A stretch of 64,000 nt of DNA from Oscillospiraceae bacterium MB24-C1 (GTDB lineage: Bacteria; Bacillota; Clostridia; Oscillospirales; Ruminococcaceae). The stretch covers positions 1,079,501 through 1,143,500 of the forward strand of contig CP133187.1 in assembly GCA_030913685.1 (NCBI GenBank). The letters run 5' to 3'. Below the pieces are notes generated by a model that saw only the letters and a program-made list of their open reading frames with translations, was not told the DNA's origin and searched no databases. The translations under genes and the position numbers were made by a program. This document shows, in pieces, positions 35,270 through 44,007 of this stretch; position 1 is the stretch's first letter, and the number at the start of each line of letters is the position of its first letter.

Positions 35270-35701
35270 TCATGCTATATGCTGTTTTAAGTATAGAATC
35301 GCTTGGCGGTATCCGTCAAGCCCCAAACCGACAAAAGATTTAACGCAGGCCATTTTAGCATAGGAGTGGTGCCGGAATTCCTCACGTCCGTAGACATTTG
35401 AAATATGTACCTCGACAGCAGGAATGCCGACCGCTTTTAGCGCATCGAGTATCGCCACACTCGTGTGAGTATAAGCGGCGGGGTTAATCACGATGGCATC
35501 TTTTGCACCATATGCTTCCTGAATTTTATCGACGATTGCCCCTTCATGGTTGGACTGAAAACATTCAGCCTCGATATCATTTTCCGCACAGGTATTCTGG
35601 ATTATTTCTAGAAGGCTCTCATAGCTTGTGCTACCGTAGATGTCTTTTTCCCGAATGCCGAGCATGTTGATATTGGGTCCATTAATGACTAAGAGCTTCA
35701 T
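35270..35701 (-). CDS. aroQ: 3-dehydroquinate dehydratase, type II
   Basis: 143 residues with GGAGGG before the ATG. Starts [21 protein letters not shown] (catalytic Arg and Tyr), then [32 protein letters not shown] and [15 protein letters not shown] with the catalytic His. Removes water from 3-dehydroquinate, step 3 of the shikimate pathway. Last gene of the operon; its start overlaps the aroE-aroK gene by 20 nt. Confidence 0.96.
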
Positions 35702-36944
35702 AAAATCCCTCCATAATTCTTTCTTTTGCCTGTTCTATTCCTTGCTTGTTTTCCACTGTAAAATCGCTACTTTTTTTATAAATTGGCGTGCGTTGCTTTT
35801 TCATTGCACGCAAAGCATCAATACCCTTTGAGAGCGGTCGTCCGTCGGTGGGCAACAGCTCCAGCGGGCGATCAAGGCATGCGATCAGGCCGTTTTGCTG
35901 CAAGGCTGCGACATTCTGTTCCCTGAGTATCGCGCCGCCCCCTGTTGAAATAACCAACCCGGTGCGTCTTCCCACCTCGGCAACCGTCTCAGACTCTATC
36001 TCACGAAAACGTGCTTCGCCGTATTTTGCAAAAATCTCGGGGATACTCCTACCAGCCTTTTGCACAATAATATCGTCAATCTCAACAACCTCACGCCCCA
36101 TACTCTCGGCACAGGCAGCCGCCAGCGTCGACTTACCCGAACCGGGCATTCCCACCAGCACCAAATTAGTCAGTTCCTTGCGCAGCTTCTGCTCGATGAC
36201 ACCGATCTGCCTGTCGGAGATTGGCATTCTGCCAAAGCGCTCGGCGGCGTATTTGGCTTGTGCTACCAGCATTGAAAGCCCGCCCCCGCAAGGGATGCCC
36301 AACCGTTTAGCCTCAAGCAACAGCGCCGTTGAAAGCGGATTATAGATCACATCCAGTACACCACCAAGCTTGGGAAAACGCGTCAATTCAATCAGCCTCA
36401 CACCATTATTCGGAAACATGCCCACCGGCGTGGTGTTCACGATAATCTCTGCGTCGGCTTGCCCATAGACGTTTTGATAATTGACGGCACCGTTTCTTGA
36501 TACCACAATGATCTCCCGCGCACCCTCGTGACGGATGGCCGTACGCGCGGTGAGGCTGGTGCCGCCGTTACCGAGTATAAGCACCTTTTTGTTCTTGAAT
36601 GAAATCCCCACTTTGCGAGCGAGATATAAAAAGCCCGCGTAGTCGGTATTATCGCCCAGCAGTCGTCCATCGGACTGCATCATCAGCGTATTGACGCTAC
36701 CTATCTCTCTGGCTGCGTCGGTGAGCAGGTCGCAGTGCGGAATGACCGTCCTTTTATAGGGAATAGTCACGTTGAGTCCGGCAAATTGTCGCGCAGACAA
36801 AAATGCTTCAATTTTGTCGCGTGGTATGCTCATCAACTCATAGTCATAGCCGCAAAGCGCGTGGTGTATATGTTTTGAGTAGCTGTGCCCCAGCGTTTCT
36901 CCTATGAGGCCATAGCGTTCGGTATTTGCCATCAAAATCGCCAT
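35682..36944 (-). CDS. aroE-aroK: shikimate dehydrogenase - shikimate kinase fusion
   Basis: 420 residues. Residues about 1-255 are shikimate dehydrogenase (GHSYSKHIHHAL, GLNVTIPYKR with catalytic Lys, GDNTDYAGF, GNGGTSLTA). Residues about 260-420 are shikimate kinase (GMPGSGKSTLA Walker A, EIDDII, FREIESE, STGGGAI, RPLSKG). The two enzymes act in sequence, so the fusion joins pathway steps 4 and 5. An alternative ATG lies at 36932. Starts 6 nt after pheA. Confidence 0.94.
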   Translation of the reverse strand: MAILMANTERYGLIGETLGHSYSKHIHHALCGYDYELMSIPRDKIEAFLSARQFAGLNVTIPYKRTVIPHCDLLTDAAREIGSVNTLMMQSDGRLLGDNTDYAGFLYLARKVGISFKNKKVLILGNGGTSLTARTAIRHEGAREIIVVSRNGAVNYQNVYGQADAEIIVNTTPVGMFPNNGVRLIELTRFPKLGGVLDVIYNPLSTALLLEAKRLGIPCGGGLSMLVAQAKYAAERFGRMPISDRQIGVIEQKLRKELTNLVLVGMPGSGKSTLAAACAESMGREVVEIDDIIVQKAGRSIPEIFAKYGEARFREIESETVAEVGRRTGLVISTGGGAILREQNVAALQQNGLIACLDRPLELLPTDGRPLSKGIDALRAMKKQRTPIYKKSSDFTVENKQGIEQAKERIMEGFYEALSH

Positions 36945-36950
36945 CCTGTC

Positions 36951-38090
36951 CTATGCGTCAATATAGTTGCCCAGAAACACAAAAGTTCCCGGATTGTTTT
37001 GCAGCTCACAAAGTAGTTTTAAAACCGCCTCGGAACAGACCGAAGCCTCAAGGTCGAAATAAAACATGAACTCAAAGTCCTTGCCCGGGATCGGGCGGCT
37101 TTCAAGCTTTGTAAGGTTGATGCCCATCATCGAAAAGCGTGACAGCATGCCAGAAAGAGAGCCCGCGCAATGCGGAAGCGTCATCATCAGCGATATCTTA
37201 GATGCACCCGGATAGATTTCCAGTTCGCGCGAGATGCAGATAAAGCGGGTGAAGTTGTTGTCGCTGTTCTGAATATTTTCAGAGAGGACCCCAAGCCCGT
37301 AAAGCTCGGCACACTGACGTGATGAAATAGCCGCAACGTCGTCCCTATTCGATTCAGCCACCATCTTGGCCGCCATCGCGGTGTTGGCGCAGACCGTAAC
37401 CTTGATCTCGGGATGCGCCTTTAAGAACTCGCCGCACTGACCGATGGCCTGTTCGTGCGAAAAAACCTCGCGAATATCTTTTAGTGCCGCGCCCTTTCTG
37501 GCCAGTAACGTGTGCGCGATGCGCAGACGGGTCCCACGGACAATGCTGAAATGGTGCTTTTTCATTAAATCATAAACCGAACCGACCGAACCGAATGAGC
37601 TGTTCTCTATCGGTAGAATACCGTAGCGGCACAGCCCCTGCTCCACCGCCTGAAATACGCCATCAAAGTTCTGAACATAGACAATTTCAGCGTGGGGAAA
37701 TAGTTTGTCACAGGCTTGCTGTGAATAGGCGCCCTCCACGCCCTGACAGGCTACCACCGCCCGCCTTGGGAAAAGCTGCGGCGTGTTTTTCATAGCATCT
37801 TTAATGTGGCCAGCAAGACTGTTTTCGTTTATCATCAGGCTGCTTTGGTAAGAGCGGCTCAGCTCAAACAGTGTGCGAAACAGGACTTGGGTATAATCTT
37901 CAAACGGTTCGCCTGCTTCGAGCGCCATACGATTTAAAATTGTGCGTTCACGCTCTTTGTCTAGCACAGGTAGACCATTTTCGGCTTTATATCGGGCAAT
38001 ATCCATCGAAACGTCCATTCGCTCAACAAACAGTTTGACCATCTGGTGGTTAATGTCATCGATCTTCATTCTCAGCGTATTTATATCCAT
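36951..38090 (-). CDS. pheA: bifunctional chorismate mutase / prephenate dehydratase
   Basis: 379 residues: an AroQ-class chorismate mutase (about 1-88, MKIDDINHQMVKLFVERMDVSMDIARYK), prephenate dehydratase (about 108-285, GVEGAYSQQAC, ENSSFGSVGSVYDLM, NFTRFICI) and a C-terminal ACT domain (about 296-376) with LTKLESRPIPGKDFEFMFYFD. Makes phenylpyruvate; the ACT domain should give allosteric inhibition by Phe. Overlaps aroC by 10 nt. Confidence 0.95.
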   Translation of the reverse strand: MDINTLRMKIDDINHQMVKLFVERMDVSMDIARYKAENGLPVLDKERERTILNRMALEAGEPFEDYTQVLFRTLFELSRSYQSSLMINENSLAGHIKDAMKNTPQLFPRRAVVACQGVEGAYSQQACDKLFPHAEIVYVQNFDGVFQAVEQGLCRYGILPIENSSFGSVGSVYDLMKKHHFSIVRGTRLRIAHTLLARKGAALKDIREVFSHEQAIGQCGEFLKAHPEIKVTVCANTAMAAKMVAESNRDDVAAISSRQCAELYGLGVLSENIQNSDNNFTRFICISRELEIYPGASKISLMMTLPHCAGSLSGMLSRFSMMGINLTKLESRPIPGKDFEFMFYFDLEASVCSEAVLKLLCELQNNPGTFVFLGNYIDA

Positions 38091-39181
38091 TGGTTCCTTC
38101 CCTTCTCTTCAATCAGCAGGTCTAGTAACACCAGCGCCACCGCCGCTTCTACACATGGAACAGCACGCAGCACCACACAGGGGTCATGCCTACCCGTGAT
38201 GGCAAGCTGGGCATTTTCCTGTGCCGAAAAGCTAACTGTTTTCTGTAGTTTTGCAATCGACGGCGTCGGTTTAAATGCCGCTCGTAATGTAATTGGCATG
38301 CCGGTTGATATGCCGCCCAAAATGCCACCGTGGTTGTTAGTTTGAGTCATAACACCACCATCCTTCATGACAAATGGGTCGTTGTGTTCACTGCCCCGCA
38401 TCGCTGCGGCGGCAAAGCCTGCGCCGAAGTCAATGCCCTTGACGGCGGGAATGCCGAAAATGGCGGCAGCCAGACGGTTTTCAAGGCCCTCGTACAGCGG
38501 TTCGCCCAGCCCTGCCGGAATTCCAACGACGGCGCACTCAATGATGCCGCCCACTGAGTCACCCTCGGCTCTTGCCGCGTCGATCTGTGCCTGCATTCTC
38601 AACCCCGCCTCATCTGAAATAACAGGGAATGCCTTTTGCGAGAGCATCATAAGCTCCAAGGTTGAAACGGTAACCGGATCGAATGGGGTATCAGCTTCAC
38701 CGGCGATGGTAGCGATATGCGCACCAACTGTGATGCCTTTTTGCGCCAAAAGCTGTATTGCCACCGCGCCCGCAAAACAGAGCGGCGCTGTGAGCCTGCC
38801 GGAAAACTGCCCCCCACCCCGGATGTCGTTTGCGCCTTTATATTTGACAGCGGCGGGGTAATCAGCATGCATCGGGCGTGGCAGATCGCGTAGCTTATCG
38901 TAATCCTTGCTTCTTGCATCGCTGTTTTGGATCATGGCAGATAGCGGTGCGCCACAGGTGACGCCGTCAACCAGTCCAGAAAGTATCTGGGGAATATCCG
39001 CCTCGCTACGAGCAGTAGAAAATCGATTCGCGCCGGGGGCCCGGCGCCCCATAAATCGATGGACGGCCTCCATGTCCAACCGCACTCCTGCGGGCAGACC
39101 ATCGAGCACCACACCGATCACCTCGCTGTGCGACTGGCCAAATATTGTGACCTTTAAGAGCTTTCCAAAACTAGATGACAT
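38081..39181 (-). CDS. aroC: chorismate synthase
   Basis: 366 residues from the ATG at 39181 (GGGAGGG 7-8 nt upstream). Has FGQSHSEVIGVVLDGLPAG, GANRFSTARSEAD, RPMHADYPAAVKY, RGGGQFSGRLTA and TNNHGGILGGISTGMPI. FMN-dependent conversion of EPSP to chorismate, the last common aromatic intermediate. Start overlaps the aroA stop by 11 nt. Confidence 0.96.
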   Translation of the reverse strand: MSSSFGKLLKVTIFGQSHSEVIGVVLDGLPAGVRLDMEAVHRFMGRRAPGANRFSTARSEADIPQILSGLVDGVTCGAPLSAMIQNSDARSKDYDKLRDLPRPMHADYPAAVKYKGANDIRGGGQFSGRLTAPLCFAGAVAIQLLAQKGITVGAHIATIAGEADTPFDPVTVSTLELMMLSQKAFPVISDEAGLRMQAQIDAARAEGDSVGGIIECAVVGIPAGLGEPLYEGLENRLAAAIFGIPAVKGIDFGAGFAAAAMRGSEHNDPFVMKDGGVMTQTNNHGGILGGISTGMPITLRAAFKPTPSIAKLQKTVSFSAQENAQLAITGRHDPCVVLRAVPCVEAAVALVLLDLLIEEKGRNQWI

Positions 39182-40436
39182 CGACTTTCCCTCCCAGTCG
39201 TTTAAAGTCCTCAAAGAATCTCGGGTATGATTTTTCCACCGCGGTAGCATCTTGGATGATAACATCCCCGGTGCAAATGGCGGAGGCGATGCTCATTGCC
39301 ATCGCAATTCGGTGATCGTTAAAGCTGTTGACTAGGCCTCCCCGAAGTCCACCTGTGCCCTTTATAATCAGTCCGTCCGGCAGCTCTAACACCTTGCCAC
39401 CAAGCGCATTGAGCGATTTGGCGATCGTCTGTAGCCGGTCACTTTCTTTGATTCTCAGCCGTGCCGCGTTGGTGATTTTGGTAGTGCCGACCGCCGCACA
39501 GGCCACCACAGACAAAATCGGCACAAGATCGGGTATTTCAGTAGCGTCGATGTTGATACCACTTAAAGCTTGTGGCGAGACAACGGCATGGCTTCCGTCG
39601 GTCTCAGCCTGAGCGCCAAAGCGCCGCAGCAGTGGTACGATTTTGCTGTCGCCCTGCACGGTATCGGCGTCCAGCGTTGTCACGGTGATAGGTGCACACA
39701 TGGCCCCCGCCGCCAGCCAGAACGCTGCGTTGGACCAGTCGCCCTCTGCGGCGATTCGGCCCGGTGAGCAATAACGCTGCCCACCCTTGATATGGTAACC
39801 GCCACCATTTGGCAGCGGGGTAATGTCGATGTTAAAACGCGCGAGTGTACGCAGCGTCATTGAAACGTAACCCGCTGACTCCAGCGGTGTAGTCAGAAGG
39901 ATATTGCTGTCGCCCGCCAGCAGCGGCAGCGCGAACAGCAGTCCTGTAATATACTGAGAGCTGATGTTGCCTGGCAGGGTAAATTCCCCCGCCGTCAAAG
40001 TACCTTTCATGGTAAAAGGAAGGTGTGCGGCATCAAAGGAGCAGTCGTGGAATTCCATTTCCTCGCGCAGCGGAGAGAGGGGACGCTGCGGCAGCCTACC
40101 CGCGCCTTCAACCCGTGTGGTTTGGCACAGTGCCGCCGCAACCGGCAATAAAAACCGTAGGGTCGAACCGCTCTCACAACAATCCAACACCGCCTGCTTT
40201 GGCTTTTGTGCGATGGGCATTACCCGCCACACCCCCTCTTGAATCTGGGAAAAGCCAGTACCAAGTGCAGAAAGACAACCCATGGTCGCTTCTATATCGC
40301 GATTCAACTCGCTGATAACCACCTCAGTGGGGGTATCGCACAACGCCGCACAAATCAGGCACCGGTGCGCATCAGATTTTGAAGCAATAGCCCGCAATGT
40401 GCCGCGCAGAGGTGAGGGCGTAATCCTAATATCCAT
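39171..40436 (-). CDS. aroA: 3-phosphoshikimate 1-carboxyvinyltransferase (EPSP synthase)
   Basis: 421 residues. KSDAHRCLICAAL carries the substrate-binding Lys/Ser; CCESGSTLRFLLP and GRLPQRPLSPL are typical; the catalytic Asp is in EIPDLVPIL; C-terminal RIKESDRLQTIAKSLNALGG and NDHRIAMAM. Transfers the enolpyruvyl group of PEP to shikimate-3-phosphate. The glyphosate-loop residues look like a short clade II-type enzyme, though that is a tentative reading. Confidence 0.95.
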   Translation of the reverse strand: MDIRITPSPLRGTLRAIASKSDAHRCLICAALCDTPTEVVISELNRDIEATMGCLSALGTGFSQIQEGVWRVMPIAQKPKQAVLDCCESGSTLRFLLPVAAALCQTTRVEGAGRLPQRPLSPLREEMEFHDCSFDAAHLPFTMKGTLTAGEFTLPGNISSQYITGLLFALPLLAGDSNILLTTPLESAGYVSMTLRTLARFNIDITPLPNGGGYHIKGGQRYCSPGRIAAEGDWSNAAFWLAAGAMCAPITVTTLDADTVQGDSKIVPLLRRFGAQAETDGSHAVVSPQALSGINIDATEIPDLVPILSVVACAAVGTTKITNAARLRIKESDRLQTIAKSLNALGGKVLELPDGLIIKGTGGLRGGLVNSFNDHRIAMAMSIASAICTGDVIIQDATAVEKSYPRFFEDFKRLGGKVDVI

Positions 40437-40482: not shown

Positions 40483-41532
40483 TTATAGTCCCTGTTTAAT
40501 CCACTCTCTCAGCGCGTCTATCGCAATATCCTGCACAGTGCAATCTCCCACCATTGTGGGAAGAATGAGTGCCAGCCGATCACCGTGGCGCTTTTTATCG
40601 CCCAGTGCAGCCTCGGCCAGCGCTTCGACGTTATATTCGCAGACCATCGGCAGCCCGCAGGCGGTCAGGGTGTTGAGCAGTGTTTCCAGCGTTTTGAGGG
40701 ATGTTATCCCCTTTTTGACACAGGCACGCGTGATAATAACCATACCGATGGCGACCGCCTGGCCGTGCGTGATAGAAAAATTTGAACAGCGCTCGATGGC
40801 ATGCCCCACGGTATGACCAAAATTGAGCTTTCTTCGTTGTCCGATATCTCGTTCGTCCTGCGCAACAACATCGGCTTTAATAGCAACGCATCGAGTGATA
40901 ATCTCAGGCAGTCGGATTGAAACATCGTCTCCCAACAGCGGCAGCAATGTCTTGTCGAATGCCATACCGTATTTGACCGCCTCGCCCATGCCGTCGAGAA
41001 AATATTGCTGAGGTAGCATTTTAAGCGATTCACAATCGCAAATGACCAGTTCGGGCTGCCAGAATGCACCCGCTAAATTCTTGCCCGCCGCGAGATCGAC
41101 AGCGGTTTTGCCCCCGACTGAGGAATCGATAGCGGCGAGAAAGGTCGTTGGTATCTGTACAAAACGAACGCCCCTCAGATACACTGCCGCGGCAAAGCCT
41201 GCCAAATCGCCAGTGACACCACCGCCCAGTGCTACAATCAAGTCGGTTCGGGTAATTTGGTTTTCAGCCAATTGTTCCAACACAGCGGAGAGCGTCGACA
41301 GACTTTTTGACGTTTCTCCATGTGAAAAAACAATGCGACAAACCTGAAATCCGGCCTTTTTCAGTGACATTTCAACGGTGTCACCAAACAAAACGTCAAC
41401 CGTGTCGTCGGCAATAACAGCGGCGATACAGGGCTTTATCCTTTTAGCAATGAGTTGACCGCTCTGCGCCAACAGCCCGTTTCCCACCAAAACCTCATAG
41501 GGATGACTGGTCTTCACCGATACACTTTTCAT
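40483..41532 (-). CDS. aroB: 3-dehydroquinate synthase
   Basis: 349 residues from the ATG at 41532, 4 nt after the tyrA stop; an upstream in-frame start inside tyrA is less likely. NAD-binding GGGVTGDLAGFAAAVYLRGVRFVQIPTTFLAAIDSSVGGKTAVD is the family hallmark; zinc ligands lie in KADVV, FGHTVGHAIE and THGQAVAIGM. Cyclises DAHP to 3-dehydroquinate, step 2 of the pathway. Confidence 0.96.
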   Translation of the reverse strand: MKSVSVKTSHPYEVLVGNGLLAQSGQLIAKRIKPCIAAVIADDTVDVLFGDTVEMSLKKAGFQVCRIVFSHGETSKSLSTLSAVLEQLAENQITRTDLIVALGGGVTGDLAGFAAAVYLRGVRFVQIPTTFLAAIDSSVGGKTAVDLAAGKNLAGAFWQPELVICDCESLKMLPQQYFLDGMGEAVKYGMAFDKTLLPLLGDDVSIRLPEIITRCVAIKADVVAQDERDIGQRRKLNFGHTVGHAIERCSNFSITHGQAVAIGMVIITRACVKKGITSLKTLETLLNTLTACGLPMVCEYNVEALAEAALGDKKRHGDRLALILPTMVGDCTVQDIAIDALREWIKQGL

Positions 41533-41536
41533 GGCT

Positions 41537-42379
41537 TCACAGCACCTTTCCGTCCGCCTGCGCCTTTTGCTCGCGTCCTGCACGCAGCATGGTGTGCAGT
41601 CTATCTTTATTTCTGGCCTTTATTACAACACTAAACTCCTGAAGTCGCTCAACCAAAGCATCGAGCTGTTCAGCCAGCGGCTCGTAATTATCTAACATCA
41701 ATTCCGTCCACATATCCTCGTTTAGGGTCGCTACACGGGTCATATCGCGGTAGCTACCCGCTGAAAAGCCCTTGTGCCCCAGCGCACAGGGGGACTGTAC
41801 ATACGCACTTGAAACAACATGTGCCAGCTGCGAGGTGTAAGCAATCATTCGATCGTGCTCAGCGGGGTCGGTAATCACCGTTTTAGTAAAGCCCAGTGTC
41901 TGCATAAATTTCTTCAGACGGTCCACCTCGGCAATTGGCACCCCCTTCAGCGGTGTCAGTACTATTGAAGCGTTTTCAAACATGTTGCAGCGCGAATGAT
42001 CAAAACCACTGTGCTCAACACCCGCCATCGGGTGTCCGCCGATATAGCAAAAGCCATACTCTTGCGCAATGGCGTGGCATCCGCTGCACACCGCCTGCTT
42101 AACGCCGCAGGTGTCGGTCACGATGGCGGTTTTGGCAATATGCCCGGCATTGGCCGCCAGCCAGTCAATTGCCGCCTGCGGATAAAGGGCAATAATCACC
42201 ATCTCGCAGGAAGAGAGCTTTTCGTCATCGAGGATGTCATCAATTGCCCCCACCAGCCGTGCCTGATACAACGCCTGCATGTTGGCGTCCGCGCCAAATA
42301 CCGTATGCTCAGTTTTGTGTTTGATCGTCCGGGCAAATGAGCCGCCTATCAGGCCCATGCCTACCACTGCAATATTCAT
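41537..42379 (-). CDS. tyrA: prephenate dehydrogenase
   Basis: 280 residues. NAD-binding GMGLIGGSFA at 7-16, TDTCGVKQ, GGHPMAGVEHSGF with the catalytic His, and SQLAHVVSSA. Converts prephenate to 4-hydroxyphenylpyruvate for Tyr. No C-terminal ACT domain, so feedback control probably rests on the DAHP synthase and on the attenuator. 21 nt after the DAHP synthase gene. Confidence 0.94.
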   Translation of the reverse strand: MNIAVVGMGLIGGSFARTIKHKTEHTVFGADANMQALYQARLVGAIDDILDDEKLSSCEMVIIALYPQAAIDWLAANAGHIAKTAIVTDTCGVKQAVCSGCHAIAQEYGFCYIGGHPMAGVEHSGFDHSRCNMFENASIVLTPLKGVPIAEVDRLKKFMQTLGFTKTVITDPAEHDRMIAYTSQLAHVVSSAYVQSPCALGHKGFSAGSYRDMTRVATLNEDMWTELMLDNYEPLAEQLDALVERLQEFSVVIKARNKDRLHTMLRAGREQKAQADGKVL

Positions 42380-42400: not shown

Positions 42401-43411
42401 TTACGCAATTTTAAAACTATTGGGTAAGATTTTGGCGACACATTTCGCCACGTCTTCGAACGCCTCAGGTGTCAGTGACTGTGGGCCGTCGCATTTGGCG
42501 TGTGCCGGGTCGTTGTGCACCTCAATAATCAACCCGTCTGCGCCGCAGGCCGCCGACGCCATTGCCATCGGCTTGACTAGGCTGGCAATGCCACAGGCGT
42601 GACTCGGGTCGACAATCACCGGTAGGTGAGTCATGCTTTTAAGCATCGGAATCGCTGAAAGATCAAGTGTATTGCGCGTAGCCGTCTCAAAGGTGCGGAT
42701 GCCACGCTCACAAAGGATTACCCGCTCGTTGCCGCCCGCCAGGATATATTCTGCGCTCATCAACAGCTCCTGAAGAGTGTTTGAAAGCCCGCGCTTCAAC
42801 AAAATCGGCCGGTCGGTTTTGCCCAGCTCTTTAAGCAGTTCAAAGTTCTGCATATTCCGCGCACCCACCTGTATGATATCAACCTCTTCAAACAATGACA
42901 GTTGAGAAATATCCATCAACTCGGATACAATGGGCAGACCGGTCGCCTTTTTGGCTTCAATCAGGAGTTTGATGCCTTCTGCCCGCATGCCCTGAAAGGC
43001 ATAGGGGGAGGTTCTCGGCTTGAAAGCACCGCCGCGCAACAGTTTTGCGCCGGAAGCCTTGACTGCTTTAGCAACTTCGATAATCTGAGTCTCCGACTCC
43101 ACCGAACAGGGGCCCGCGGCAATCGGGCAGCTACCGTCGCCGAACACCGCTTCTCCGACGGTGATGATGGTGTTGTCAGGGTGGAACTTGCGATTGGCGT
43201 TTTTATACGGCTCCTGAATGCGTTTGACCGAGGCCACAATATCCAGCGCCTGAATCAGGTCGATATCAACGTCTGAGGTATCTCCCACCAGACCGAGAAC
43301 GATATAGCTGTTACCCTCGCTAAGGTGTATCTGTAAATTCAAGCTCTTGAGCCATGCGATCAAATTCTCCAGCTGCTTGGGGTCGGGATTCTGCTTTAAA
43401 ACCACTACCAT
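42401..43411 (-). CDS. aroF: DAHP synthase with N-terminal regulatory domain
   Basis: 336 residues. An N-terminal ferredoxin-like domain (about 1-70) as in the Thermotoga-type Tyr/Phe-inhibited enzymes, then the barrel (about 85-335) with [50 protein letters not shown] and VDPSHACG. Condenses PEP with erythrose-4-phosphate, the committed step. First enzyme gene of the operon, 66 nt after the attenuator terminator. GGAGGG ribosome site before the ATG. Confidence 0.95.
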
Positions 43412-43476
43412 TTGTGTTCCCTCCGAATCATTTTAATCACGCATTGTGACTTTTTGGTATTTTTTAGAAACAAAAA

Positions 43477-43505
43477 GGGCTTCGCAGTATTTCACTGCGA
43501 AGCCC
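43477..43505 (-). terminator. attenuator terminator ahead of the aromatic operon
   Basis: Perfect 12-bp GC-rich stem (43477-43488 with 43494-43505), 5-nt loop, then TTTTTG on the minus strand. It begins 24 nt after the leader-peptide stop and ends 65 nt before the DAHP synthase start, so it can only act on operon transcripts. Confidence 0.9.
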
Positions 43506-43590
43506 ACACTCGACAAATTTCACACCGTTTTAATCTAAAACCGGCTGAACACCTTGTGGAATTCTGTTTGCAGCAAAATACGAATAAGCC
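43478..43590 (-). promoter_or_regulatory. putative antiterminator pairing of the aro attenuator
   Basis: Leader codons 24-31 (43590-43570) can pair with 43498-43478, that is the 5-prime arm, loop and part of the 3-prime arm of the terminator: 18 of 21 positions, three being G-U. Codons 24-25 also lie in a small GCCTT/AAGGC hairpin (43610-43606 with 43592-43588). A ribosome stalled in the aromatic run would disrupt the small hairpin and free the antiterminator strand. Pairings were counted by eye. Confidence 0.6.
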
Positions 43591-43661
43591 TTGCCAAAAA
43601 AGTAAAAGGCAAAGCTAAAGTAATAATAAAAGTATTTTACTGTAGACAGGTTTTGTTTCAT
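43530..43661 (-). CDS. Tyr/Phe-rich leader peptide of the aromatic operon
   Basis: 43 codons from the ATG at 43661 with AGGAG 9 nt upstream, ending in TAA. Residues 10-22 read YFYYYFSFAFYFF, and 14 of residues 10-29 are Tyr (7) or Phe (7), with no Trp. It is followed by an intrinsic terminator and then the genes for DAHP synthase, tyrA and pheA, that is, Tyr and Phe synthesis without Trp genes. This matches the logic of enterobacterial pheL: scarcity of charged tRNA-Tyr or tRNA-Phe stalls the ribosome and permits read-through. Strongly supported as a leader by composition and position; not shown to be translated. Confidence 0.88.
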   Translation of the reverse strand: MKQNLSTVKYFYYYFSFAFYFFGKAYSYFAANRIPQGVQPVLD

Positions 43662-43692
43662 GGTGTTACGCTCCTATGAAGGAATTGTAAAT

Positions 43693-43701
43693 ATGATAAC
43701 A
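43693..43701 (-). promoter_or_regulatory. extended -10 promoter of the aromatic operon
   Basis: TGTTATCAT on the minus strand (TG-n-TATCAT) with only a poor -35 (TTTATC, 43721-43716). A start near 43686 would leave about 25 nt before the leader ATG, including its ribosome site. Confidence 0.5.
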
Positions 43702-43773
43702 CAGATCGCATCCAAGATAAAAGAGAAAAATGCAACAATGTTAAAGCTGAATCAACGCTGTTTCTTATAGGTT

Positions 43774-44007
43774 TTAACTATTTTCAATGTCAATTAGCGT
43801 TTCTGGTGGCACCTCTTCTTCCGTTTCAGGCGATGAATCGGTGGCGGTTGGCGACGGCTCACTTGTCTCTACTGGCGCCTCGGCAGCGTCATCATAAATG
43901 ACGTCAGTGACAATTTCGGCGTCATTCTTATTTTGAGTGGGCATCAGTTTTTTGGCAACCAGTGCAGCGGCAGCCGCCACAGCGGCCAATAGTAATAATT
44001 TTTTCAT
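43774..44007 (-). CDS. small membrane-anchored acidic protein
   Basis: 77 residues from the ATG at 44007 (AAAGGAGATG 7-10 nt upstream). One N-terminal hydrophobic helix (about 3-18, Leu/Ala-rich), then KK and an acidic, Pro/Thr/Ser/Glu-rich tail (about 30-77) with no clear domain. No cleavage site that I trust. Function unknown. Lies just upstream of the aro leader; a shared transcript is possible as no terminator separates them. Confidence 0.6.
   Translation of the reverse strand: MKKLLLLAAVAAAAALVAKKLMPTQNKNDAEIVTDVIYDDAAEAPVETSEPSPTATDSSPETEEEVPPETLIDIENS

Follow-up and report, generated by a model that had tools for sequence, protein, structure and literature searches.

How does a clostridial cell set the transcription of a single operon that holds shikimate pathway genes together with both tyrA and pheA? 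The question is raised by the window, a stretch of 64,000 nucleotides (64 kb) from Oscillospiraceae bacterium MB24-C1, in which these genes run in the order aroF-tyrA-aroB-aroA-aroC-pheA-aroEK-aroQ and are followed by enolase (above its curated NCBIfam cut-off). Our answer, to which we give roughly nine chances in ten, is that a ribosome-mediated transcription attenuator senses charged tRNA-Tyr and charged tRNA-Phe and thereby controls the whole shikimate-Tyr-Phe operon. The coordinates of the features discussed are collected in Table 1.

Table 1. Leader elements and structural genes of the aromatic amino acid operon, in the direction of transcription; positions are those of the window.
Feature	Position	Strand	Basis
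Extended -10 promoter-like element TGT-TATCAT, putative leader promoter	43693..43701	-	by eye, inference only
Ribosome-binding site TAGGAG	43671..43676	-	sequence; nine bases before ATG
Leader peptide ORF	43530..43661	-	sequence; family-wide conservation
Segment 1 (protector) CAGTAAAATAC, codons 7-10	43632..43642	-	11 contiguous pairs with 43581-43571; MFE structure
Inner hairpin 5' arm, within control codons, AGCTTTGCC	43608..43616	-	MFE; family helices 2 and 3
Inner hairpin 3' arm GGCAAGGCT, codons Gly-Lys-Ala	43587..43595	-	MFE; family alignment
Segment 2 (antiterminator 5' strand) TATTTTGCTGC, codons 28-31	43570..43580	-	11 contiguous pairs with 43498-43488; family helix
Segment 3 GCAGTGAAATA, pairing partner of segment 2 in the terminator 5' arm and loop	43488..43498	-	family alignment, sequence
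Intrinsic terminator hairpin (3:4)	43477..43505	-	-22.7 kcal/mol; T run 43476-43472
aroF, DAHP synthase, first structural gene	42401..43411	-	NF006421, TIGR01361 above cut-off
tyrA, prephenate dehydrogenase	41537..42379	-	best NCBIfam match 1e-51, below the model's cut-off
aroB, 3-dehydroquinate synthase	40483..41538	-	NCBIfam above curated cut-off
aroA, EPSP synthase	39171..40436	-	NCBIfam above curated cut-off
aroC, chorismate synthase	38081..39181	-	NCBIfam above curated cut-off
pheA, chorismate mutase/prephenate dehydratase	36951..38090	-	best match 5e-63, 213 bits vs cut-off 219
aroE-aroK fusion, shikimate dehydrogenase/kinase	35682..36944	-	both halves match strongly, below cut-offs
aroQ, type II dehydroquinate dehydratase	35270..35701	-	NCBIfam above curated cut-off

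By the criteria for an attenuator, the window has a short ORF that immediately precedes the operon and has a ribosome-binding site, a cluster of codons for the pathway end products, an intrinsic terminator between this ORF and the first structural gene, and stems that exclude one another (2:3 with 3:4, and 1:2 with 2:3), with 11 contiguous pairs each way. The ORF spans 43 codons and encodes the peptide MKQNLSTVKYFYYYFSFAFYFFGKAYSYFAANRIPQGVQPVLD; its codons 10-29 comprise seven Tyr, seven Phe and no Trp. The terminator stem is a perfect 12 bp, or 13 with a G-T pair, and runs into TTTTT. An earlier note on this DNA had described the ORF, its ribosome site and its 14 aromatic residues, as well as the terminator with its T run and the aromatic operon behind it, and the sequence and the NCBIfam matches bear this description out. 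Folding of the window leader stands at z = -5.5 relative to shuffles. The element listed as a putative promoter is not among the candidates of the pattern scan. Just upstream of the leader we also observed a small ORF (44022-43774, minus strand) with a marginal NCBIfam match to the DLW-39 family (26 bits, cut-off 24), preceded by a strong promoter-like site (44106-44077). At the far end of the operon, enolase (35156-33885, minus strand) lies directly behind aroQ, and it may share the attenuated transcript, given that its product, PEP, is a substrate of both DAHP synthase and EPSP synthase.

Ten bases of the leader RNA, TATTTTGCTG (43580-43571, codons 28-31), are common to two competing helices of 11 pairs each, one with segment 1 and the other with segment 3, and an inner hairpin, AGCTTTGCC/GGCAAGGCT, spans the control codons in the MFE structure. 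The proposal, made in the earlier note, that the 3' codons of the ORF form an antiterminator with the 5' arm of the terminator stands in substance, with a covariation-supported core of 11 bp at codons 28-31, though in a different register: the pairing of 18 out of 21 positions over codons 24-31 was not reproduced, and the core supported by covariation is TATTTTGCTGC with GCAGTGAAATA.

These alternatives suggest the following course of events. When charged tRNA-Tyr or charged tRNA-Phe is short, a ribosome would stall among the control codons, sitting between segments 1 and 2 and covering segment 1 or the inner hairpin; segment 2 would then be freed to pair with the 5' arm and loop of the terminator, and RNA polymerase would read through. 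When both charged tRNAs are plentiful, the ribosome would clear the control codons, segment 2 would be covered or re-paired with segment 1, and with segment 2 occupied the terminator would form and transcription would stop. Without translation, the 1:2 pairing would also favour termination. The stalling itself, its kinetics and the response to Tyr and Phe supply are the parts of this scheme that we infer.

A leader of this kind should recur in relatives, and 110 aroF loci were collected for comparison: 30 from the source genome and others of its family, chosen as the best in a search of 197 genomes, and the best 80 of 594 in a species-level genome collection, so that they represent close relatives of the window enzyme rather than a random sample. 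Removal of four identical upstream regions and three shorter than 300 nt left 103 distinct ones, the window included. An ORF with at least six aromatic residues in 12 is present in 85 of these 103, compared with a mean of 5.2 and a maximum of 8 in 30 rounds of dinucleotide shuffling, and with four on the reverse strand. The aromatic leader ORF is not a product of chance. The 85 peptides consist of 18.6% Phe, 12.0% Tyr and 0.5% Trp. Eighteen upstream regions fail this test within 300 nt; among them, L056 and L058 have an aromatic ORF further upstream, and L059 and L078 reach 5 of 12. For the terminator we took the 97 loci with an ORF of at least five aromatics and removed eight, either as duplicates or near-duplicates (L032, L037, L038, L048 and L086) or as not leader-like (L035, L090 and L108). 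The script found a terminator hairpin behind 87 of the 89 remaining leaders, 86 of the 87 at -10 kcal/mol or stronger; for the other two, L036 and L095, a hairpin is visible by eye.

If the control codons report on the supply of end products, their identity might be expected to follow the genes downstream. For 112 leaders, that of the window among them, Phe and Tyr were counted over the densest 20 codons; with genes chained over gaps below 350 nt, the gene that follows in the same orientation could be recognised for 103 of them. The median Tyr share, Y/(F+Y), is 0.12 where aroF is followed by pheA (n = 8, range 0-0.50), 0.20 where it is followed by aroB, aroA or aroC (n = 22, 0-0.60), 0.45 in units with both tyrA and pheA (n = 10, 0.30-0.88; 0.50 in the window) and 0.62 for aroF-tyrA alone with enough sequence (n = 7, 0.40-1.00). 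The 73 leaders with tyrA next exceed the 30 others in Tyr share (Mann-Whitney p = 7e-11), and Tyr equals or outnumbers Phe in 35 of the 73 as opposed to three of the 30. Phylogenetic contrasts on the aroF tree give r = 0.41 (p = 1.4e-5, 102 contrasts), with 24 of the 35 non-zero contrasts bearing the expected sign. On well-supported branches only six independent pairs are available, of which on average 4.4 agree, 0.1 disagree and 1.4 show no difference (median p 0.125, at a cut of 0.36 picked after the data had been seen). Exceptions occur: in G067 tyrA follows the Phe-rich copy (F9 Y1) and not the Tyr-rich one, L107 (F5 Y5) is followed by pheA and L036 (F4 Y6) by aroB, and G051 has two Tyr-rich aroF copies. 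Leader codons thus appear to match, as a tendency, the genes they would control.

This tendency bears on one alternative, namely that the leader senses translation in general or one amino acid, Phe alone, with the Tyr codons as U-rich filler. A UUU-rich RNA could indeed be selected for its pairing, and the excess of Phe over Tyr across the family would suit such a reading. It has difficulty, however, with Tyr-dominant leaders ahead of aroF-tyrA that are devoid of Phe in their densest block (G023b, F0 Y8; G033b, F0 Y7), and with the fall of Tyr codons to 0-1 ahead of aroF-pheA in seven of eight cases, and we regard it as improbable. The earlier suggestion that Tyr and Phe are both measured gains further support from a Tyr:Phe ratio that appears to track tyrA versus pheA.

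Genomes with more than one aroF offer a comparison within a single cell. Among 25 multi-copy genomes, which form part of those in the family search, both copies carry leaders in 15, one copy in seven and neither in three; G050a and G114b, whose best ORFs have no more than five aromatics in 12 and are not leader-like, were left out of the pairs. Of the 15 genomes with leaders at both copies, 11 pair a Phe-dominant leader with a Tyr-dominant one (for example F9 Y1 vs F0 Y8, or F8 Y0 vs F1 Y7); the remaining four comprise three with a Phe-dominant leader beside an equal or milder one and one with both leaders Tyr-dominant. The difference within genomes exceeds that of random pairing (permutation p = 0.002). 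The gene order agrees with this split in nine of the 11 genomes, where aroF-tyrA stands behind the Tyr-rich leader and aroF-pheA or aroF-aroBAC(-pheA) behind the Phe-rich one; the two others are G038, whose tandem copies lack tyrA, and G067, in which leaders and genes are matched the other way round. Tandem aroF pairs in which each gene has its own leader ORF were seen in G051 (L203) and G038 (L202). Seven second copies lack a leader ORF while the other copy has one (L145, L146, L155, L161, L163, L171 and L175); their upstream regions gave no Rfam match at E up to 0.1, and Phe outnumbers Tyr in every one of the seven partner leaders (by 5:4 in G114).

We consider it likely, with less assurance than for the attenuator itself, that this leader family sets the regulatory identity of DAHP synthase isozymes in Clostridia: mixed leaders would go with undivided operons, and duplicated genes would carry Tyr-only or Phe-only leaders that match tyrA or pheA. 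A mixed Tyr/Phe leader would, on this reading, register that either amino acid is short. Enterobacteria have Tyr- and Phe-regulated DAHP synthase isozymes, and the clostridial arrangement, if it is as we propose, would be their transcriptional counterpart.

The stems were examined in an alignment of 46 of the 89 leaders, hand-picked for a recognisable core. The structure was derived from the same 46 sequences, which flatters the pairing scores, and the shuffles leave relatedness in place. The cells of the alignment are paired in 78.2% of cases for the 1:2 stems (shuffled 70.1), 86.1% for the 2:3 antiterminator (shuffled 80.0) and 91.6% for the 3:4 terminator (shuffled 73.6), values as high being found in none of 500 shuffles for each. 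The terminator has changes on both sides in 13 of 13 pairs (0/500 shuffles as high) and the antiterminator in six pairs (shuffled 3.4, 19/500 as high). The 1:2 stems do not stand out in both-side-change pairs (12 vs 10.9 when shuffled, 136/500 as high) or in further pair types (41 vs 36.4, 42/500 as high). Within 1:2, the outer protector helix P1 is paired in only 68.8% of cells, and helices 2 and 3 of the inner hairpin in 90.2% and 85.9%, with both-side changes present. Sliding the partner by one to three columns lowers pairing to 29-57%, and swapping whole arms between sequences lowers it for every helix. Both checks proposed in the earlier note therefore have an outcome in its favour: Tyr/Phe codons are conserved in related Clostridia (the 85 upstream regions above), and paired changes occur in all three stems of the 46 hand-picked leaders. 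The covariation figures are strong and would not amount to proof, since the structure was taken from the same sequences and these are related. The weaker covariation measures, together with the reversed match in G067, slightly lowered our confidence in both the attenuator and the isozyme proposals.

The alignment also separates the RNA from the peptide. In the 22 of 46 rows that are in frame, a Thr codon (ACN) at the end of the inner 5' arm goes with Gly GGT in 13 of 13 cases and an Ala codon (GCN) with GGC in eight of nine; in this pairing with the third base of Gly, the Gly change is silent and the partner change is not. Furthermore, the stop codon precedes the conserved segment 2 (the GCTGC element) in seven of the 46 leaders, so that segment 2 is there non-coding and yet kept, and follows it in the other 39. 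It is the RNA rather than the peptide that is conserved, as far as such patterns tell. One could still imagine that the ORF encodes a functional small membrane peptide, co-transcribed with the operon, whose aromatic residues serve its own function, and that the hairpin simply ends the transcript arriving from upstream. In favour of this, the encoded product is hydrophobic as well as aromatic, with a central motif, F-S-F-[TA]..F-G-K-A, that many relatives have in similar form. We rejected a functional role of the peptide itself, and hold this alternative to be very improbable, because the peptides differ greatly in length and at the C-terminus, the stop codon may lie on either side of the conserved 3' element, the silent Gly base varies with the Thr/Ala change in the opposite arm, and the Tyr:Phe ratio follows the downstream genes.

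The attenuator was then modelled by folding only the RNA downstream of the ribosome, up to the terminator loop, with the ribosome placed at each codon and on the assumption that no RNA pairs across it; a stall was represented by a ribosome on the first four control codons. The predicted pairing between upstream RNA and the 5' arm of the terminator averages 0.53 over the family without a ribosome, 0.73 when stalled and 0.38 at the stop codon. It rises from the first to the second of these states in 77 of 87 leaders; with shuffled upstream RNA (four copies per leader), stalling gives no rise (0.59 to 0.56). The contrast between stall and no ribosome is the informative one in this model. The difference between stall and stop alone was rejected as evidence, as shuffled RNA shows part of it (0.16 vs 0.36). 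For the window leader the model gives 0.31 without a ribosome and 0.75-0.81 with one on codons 10-22, and the antiterminator is already free (0.80) with the ribosome at codon 4. Pairing falls to 0.29 at codon 30, returns to 0.81-0.83 over codons 37-41 and ends at 0.53 on the stop codon, and on account of these last two values the modelled 'off' state of the window is less clean than the family mean.

No match was obtained in the 64-kb window with the 4227 models of Rfam 15 at gathering score, and at E up to 10 the leader gave eight sub-threshold, chance-like matches only; one of these candidates, the U7 snRNA model on the leader hairpin (25.5 bits, cut-off 34), was rejected as chance-like. A conserved structured RNA with alternative terminator and antiterminator would also fit a leader that is mainly a metabolite riboswitch, or a protein-binding RNA, responding to an aromatic compound, with the ORF secondary. 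Against this, the inner hairpin has its 5' strand within the control codons, none of the Rfam classes attains its cut-off, and the amino acids that the codons specify go with the pathway genes, something a riboswitch does not require; we give this explanation almost no credence.

T-box leaders respond to uncharged tRNA, which they bind directly with one specifier codon, and regulate amino acid genes by antitermination. In TRAP-type attenuation the leader carries tandem NAG triplets and the genome a TRAP gene. T-box (RF00230) leaders resemble the window leader in controlling amino acid genes and differ from it in binding tRNA directly; no T-box match was found in the window at gathering score, nor in 43400-43800 at E up to 10. 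Elsewhere in the same genome there are 14 T-box matches at E up to 0.001, eight of them over the cut-off, and two lie upstream of tyrS and pheS (G000:C1:455086-455330, L121, and 540346-540588, L124). From these predictions, the cell appears to gauge tRNA-Tyr and tRNA-Phe in two ways, through T-boxes where the synthetases are concerned and through a leader peptide where biosynthesis is. A single leader can respond to several tRNAs and a T-box to only one, which may be why a leader peptide was kept here instead of a T-box. T-boxes were likewise absent, at gathering score, from the 18 aroF loci without a clear leader (L059 and L078, with a weaker leader ORF, among them) and, at E up to 0.1, from 12 upstream regions of two-copy genomes. 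At one of 20 phylum-level aroF loci, L249, a T-box takes the place of the leader.

A covariance model of the leader, R1, finds the window site in its own genome at E 3.6e-23, a top match that is expected as R1 includes this leader; 17 weaker matches follow there, from E 7e-4 up. Across the phylum, R1 matched nine of 398 genomes, the source genome included, in a scan whose first pass scores very few candidates and which missed the leader-bearing genome G063. Distribution was therefore assessed by aroF protein search. An aroF relative is present in 142 of 159 genomes of the phylum, and 13 of the 29 best-scoring new loci, from ten families by code, have an aromatic-rich ORF within 330 nt (L246 is doubtful). 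Leaders also occur in records named Lentisphaerae (L074), Victivallales (L092), Treponemataceae (L083) and Thermoguttaceae (L107), all of them metagenome bins in which contamination and transfer are indistinguishable. Some leaders of other families (L230, L236, L237, L241 and L244) contain one or more Trp codons among those for Phe and Tyr (FRFYFSWGYYFFSAGYYFW in L236), which suggests possible three-way sensing.

The classical counterparts are the enterobacterial pheL and trpL leaders, which are listed in Rfam and combine a short ORF rich in end-product codons with exclusive 1:2, 2:3 and 3:4 stems and an intrinsic terminator. The window leader shares with them the end-product-rich ORF, the exclusive stems and the terminator before the first gene. 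It differs in combining Tyr and Phe codons, in preceding a whole shikimate operon rather than one branch, in having a segment 1 that begins before the control codons and, in the 39 leaders of 46 noted above, a stop after segment 2, and in matching no Rfam family.

The earlier note had also held that Firmicutes mostly use T-boxes or TRAP for amino acid operons. This needs a qualification: leader peptides have precedents there, in his, in ilv-leu and in shikimate-linked uORFs. Leader-peptide attenuators are reported for his in bacilli (PMC2965389) and for ilv-leu in Staphylococcus aureus (PMC5794164) and Listeria (Rli60; PMC5864092), terminator and antiterminator being described for the latter two; in the accessible parts of these sources they resemble the window leader as leader peptides regulating amino acid genes, and differ in serving other amino acids and no aromatic pathway. 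Closer to our case is the uORFC-13-1 motif, with 24 representatives from Acholeplasma and environmental DNA, in which a uORF before aroF includes a U run with at least one Phe, a further stem and an adjacent terminator, and for which control by the speed of Phe incorporation has been proposed (PMC8632094). It shares with the window leader the uORF ahead of aroF, the Phe codons, the stem and the terminator; in a comparison by text only, Tyr codons are absent from its description in the accessible part of that source, unlike the clostridial family. The same source cites an earlier attenuation hypothesis for E. coli aroF. Two candidate shikimate-linked uORFs, with Phe and Tyr noted, are mentioned among five genomes including Clostridium novyi (PMC6429828, legend to Fig. 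6b); they too are F/Y-containing leader ORFs at shikimate genes, presented there in one legend sentence without genome, mechanism, structure or distribution. Neither phenylalanine nor tyrosine is named in the main text of a survey covering 50 genomes (PMC11109978). No description of the clostridial family, its structure, the matching of codons to genes or the isozyme split was found in the open-access papers searched. Rfam lists no such family, and the papers found give no more than hints of it. The mechanism, then, looks classical; the clostridial family, the sensing of Tyr and the specialisation of isozymes look new, with prior hints.

Clostridia are usually discussed in terms of T-boxes, and the present findings point to classical ribosome-mediated attenuation as a common control of aromatic amino acid synthesis in this group. 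The Tyr:Phe ratio of its leader tends to be a guide to the branch served by an aroF copy, so that regulation in uncultured species may be readable from sequence. Furthermore, the Phe-rich, Tyr-rich and mixed leaders would constitute a natural series for studying attenuator specificity after gene duplication.
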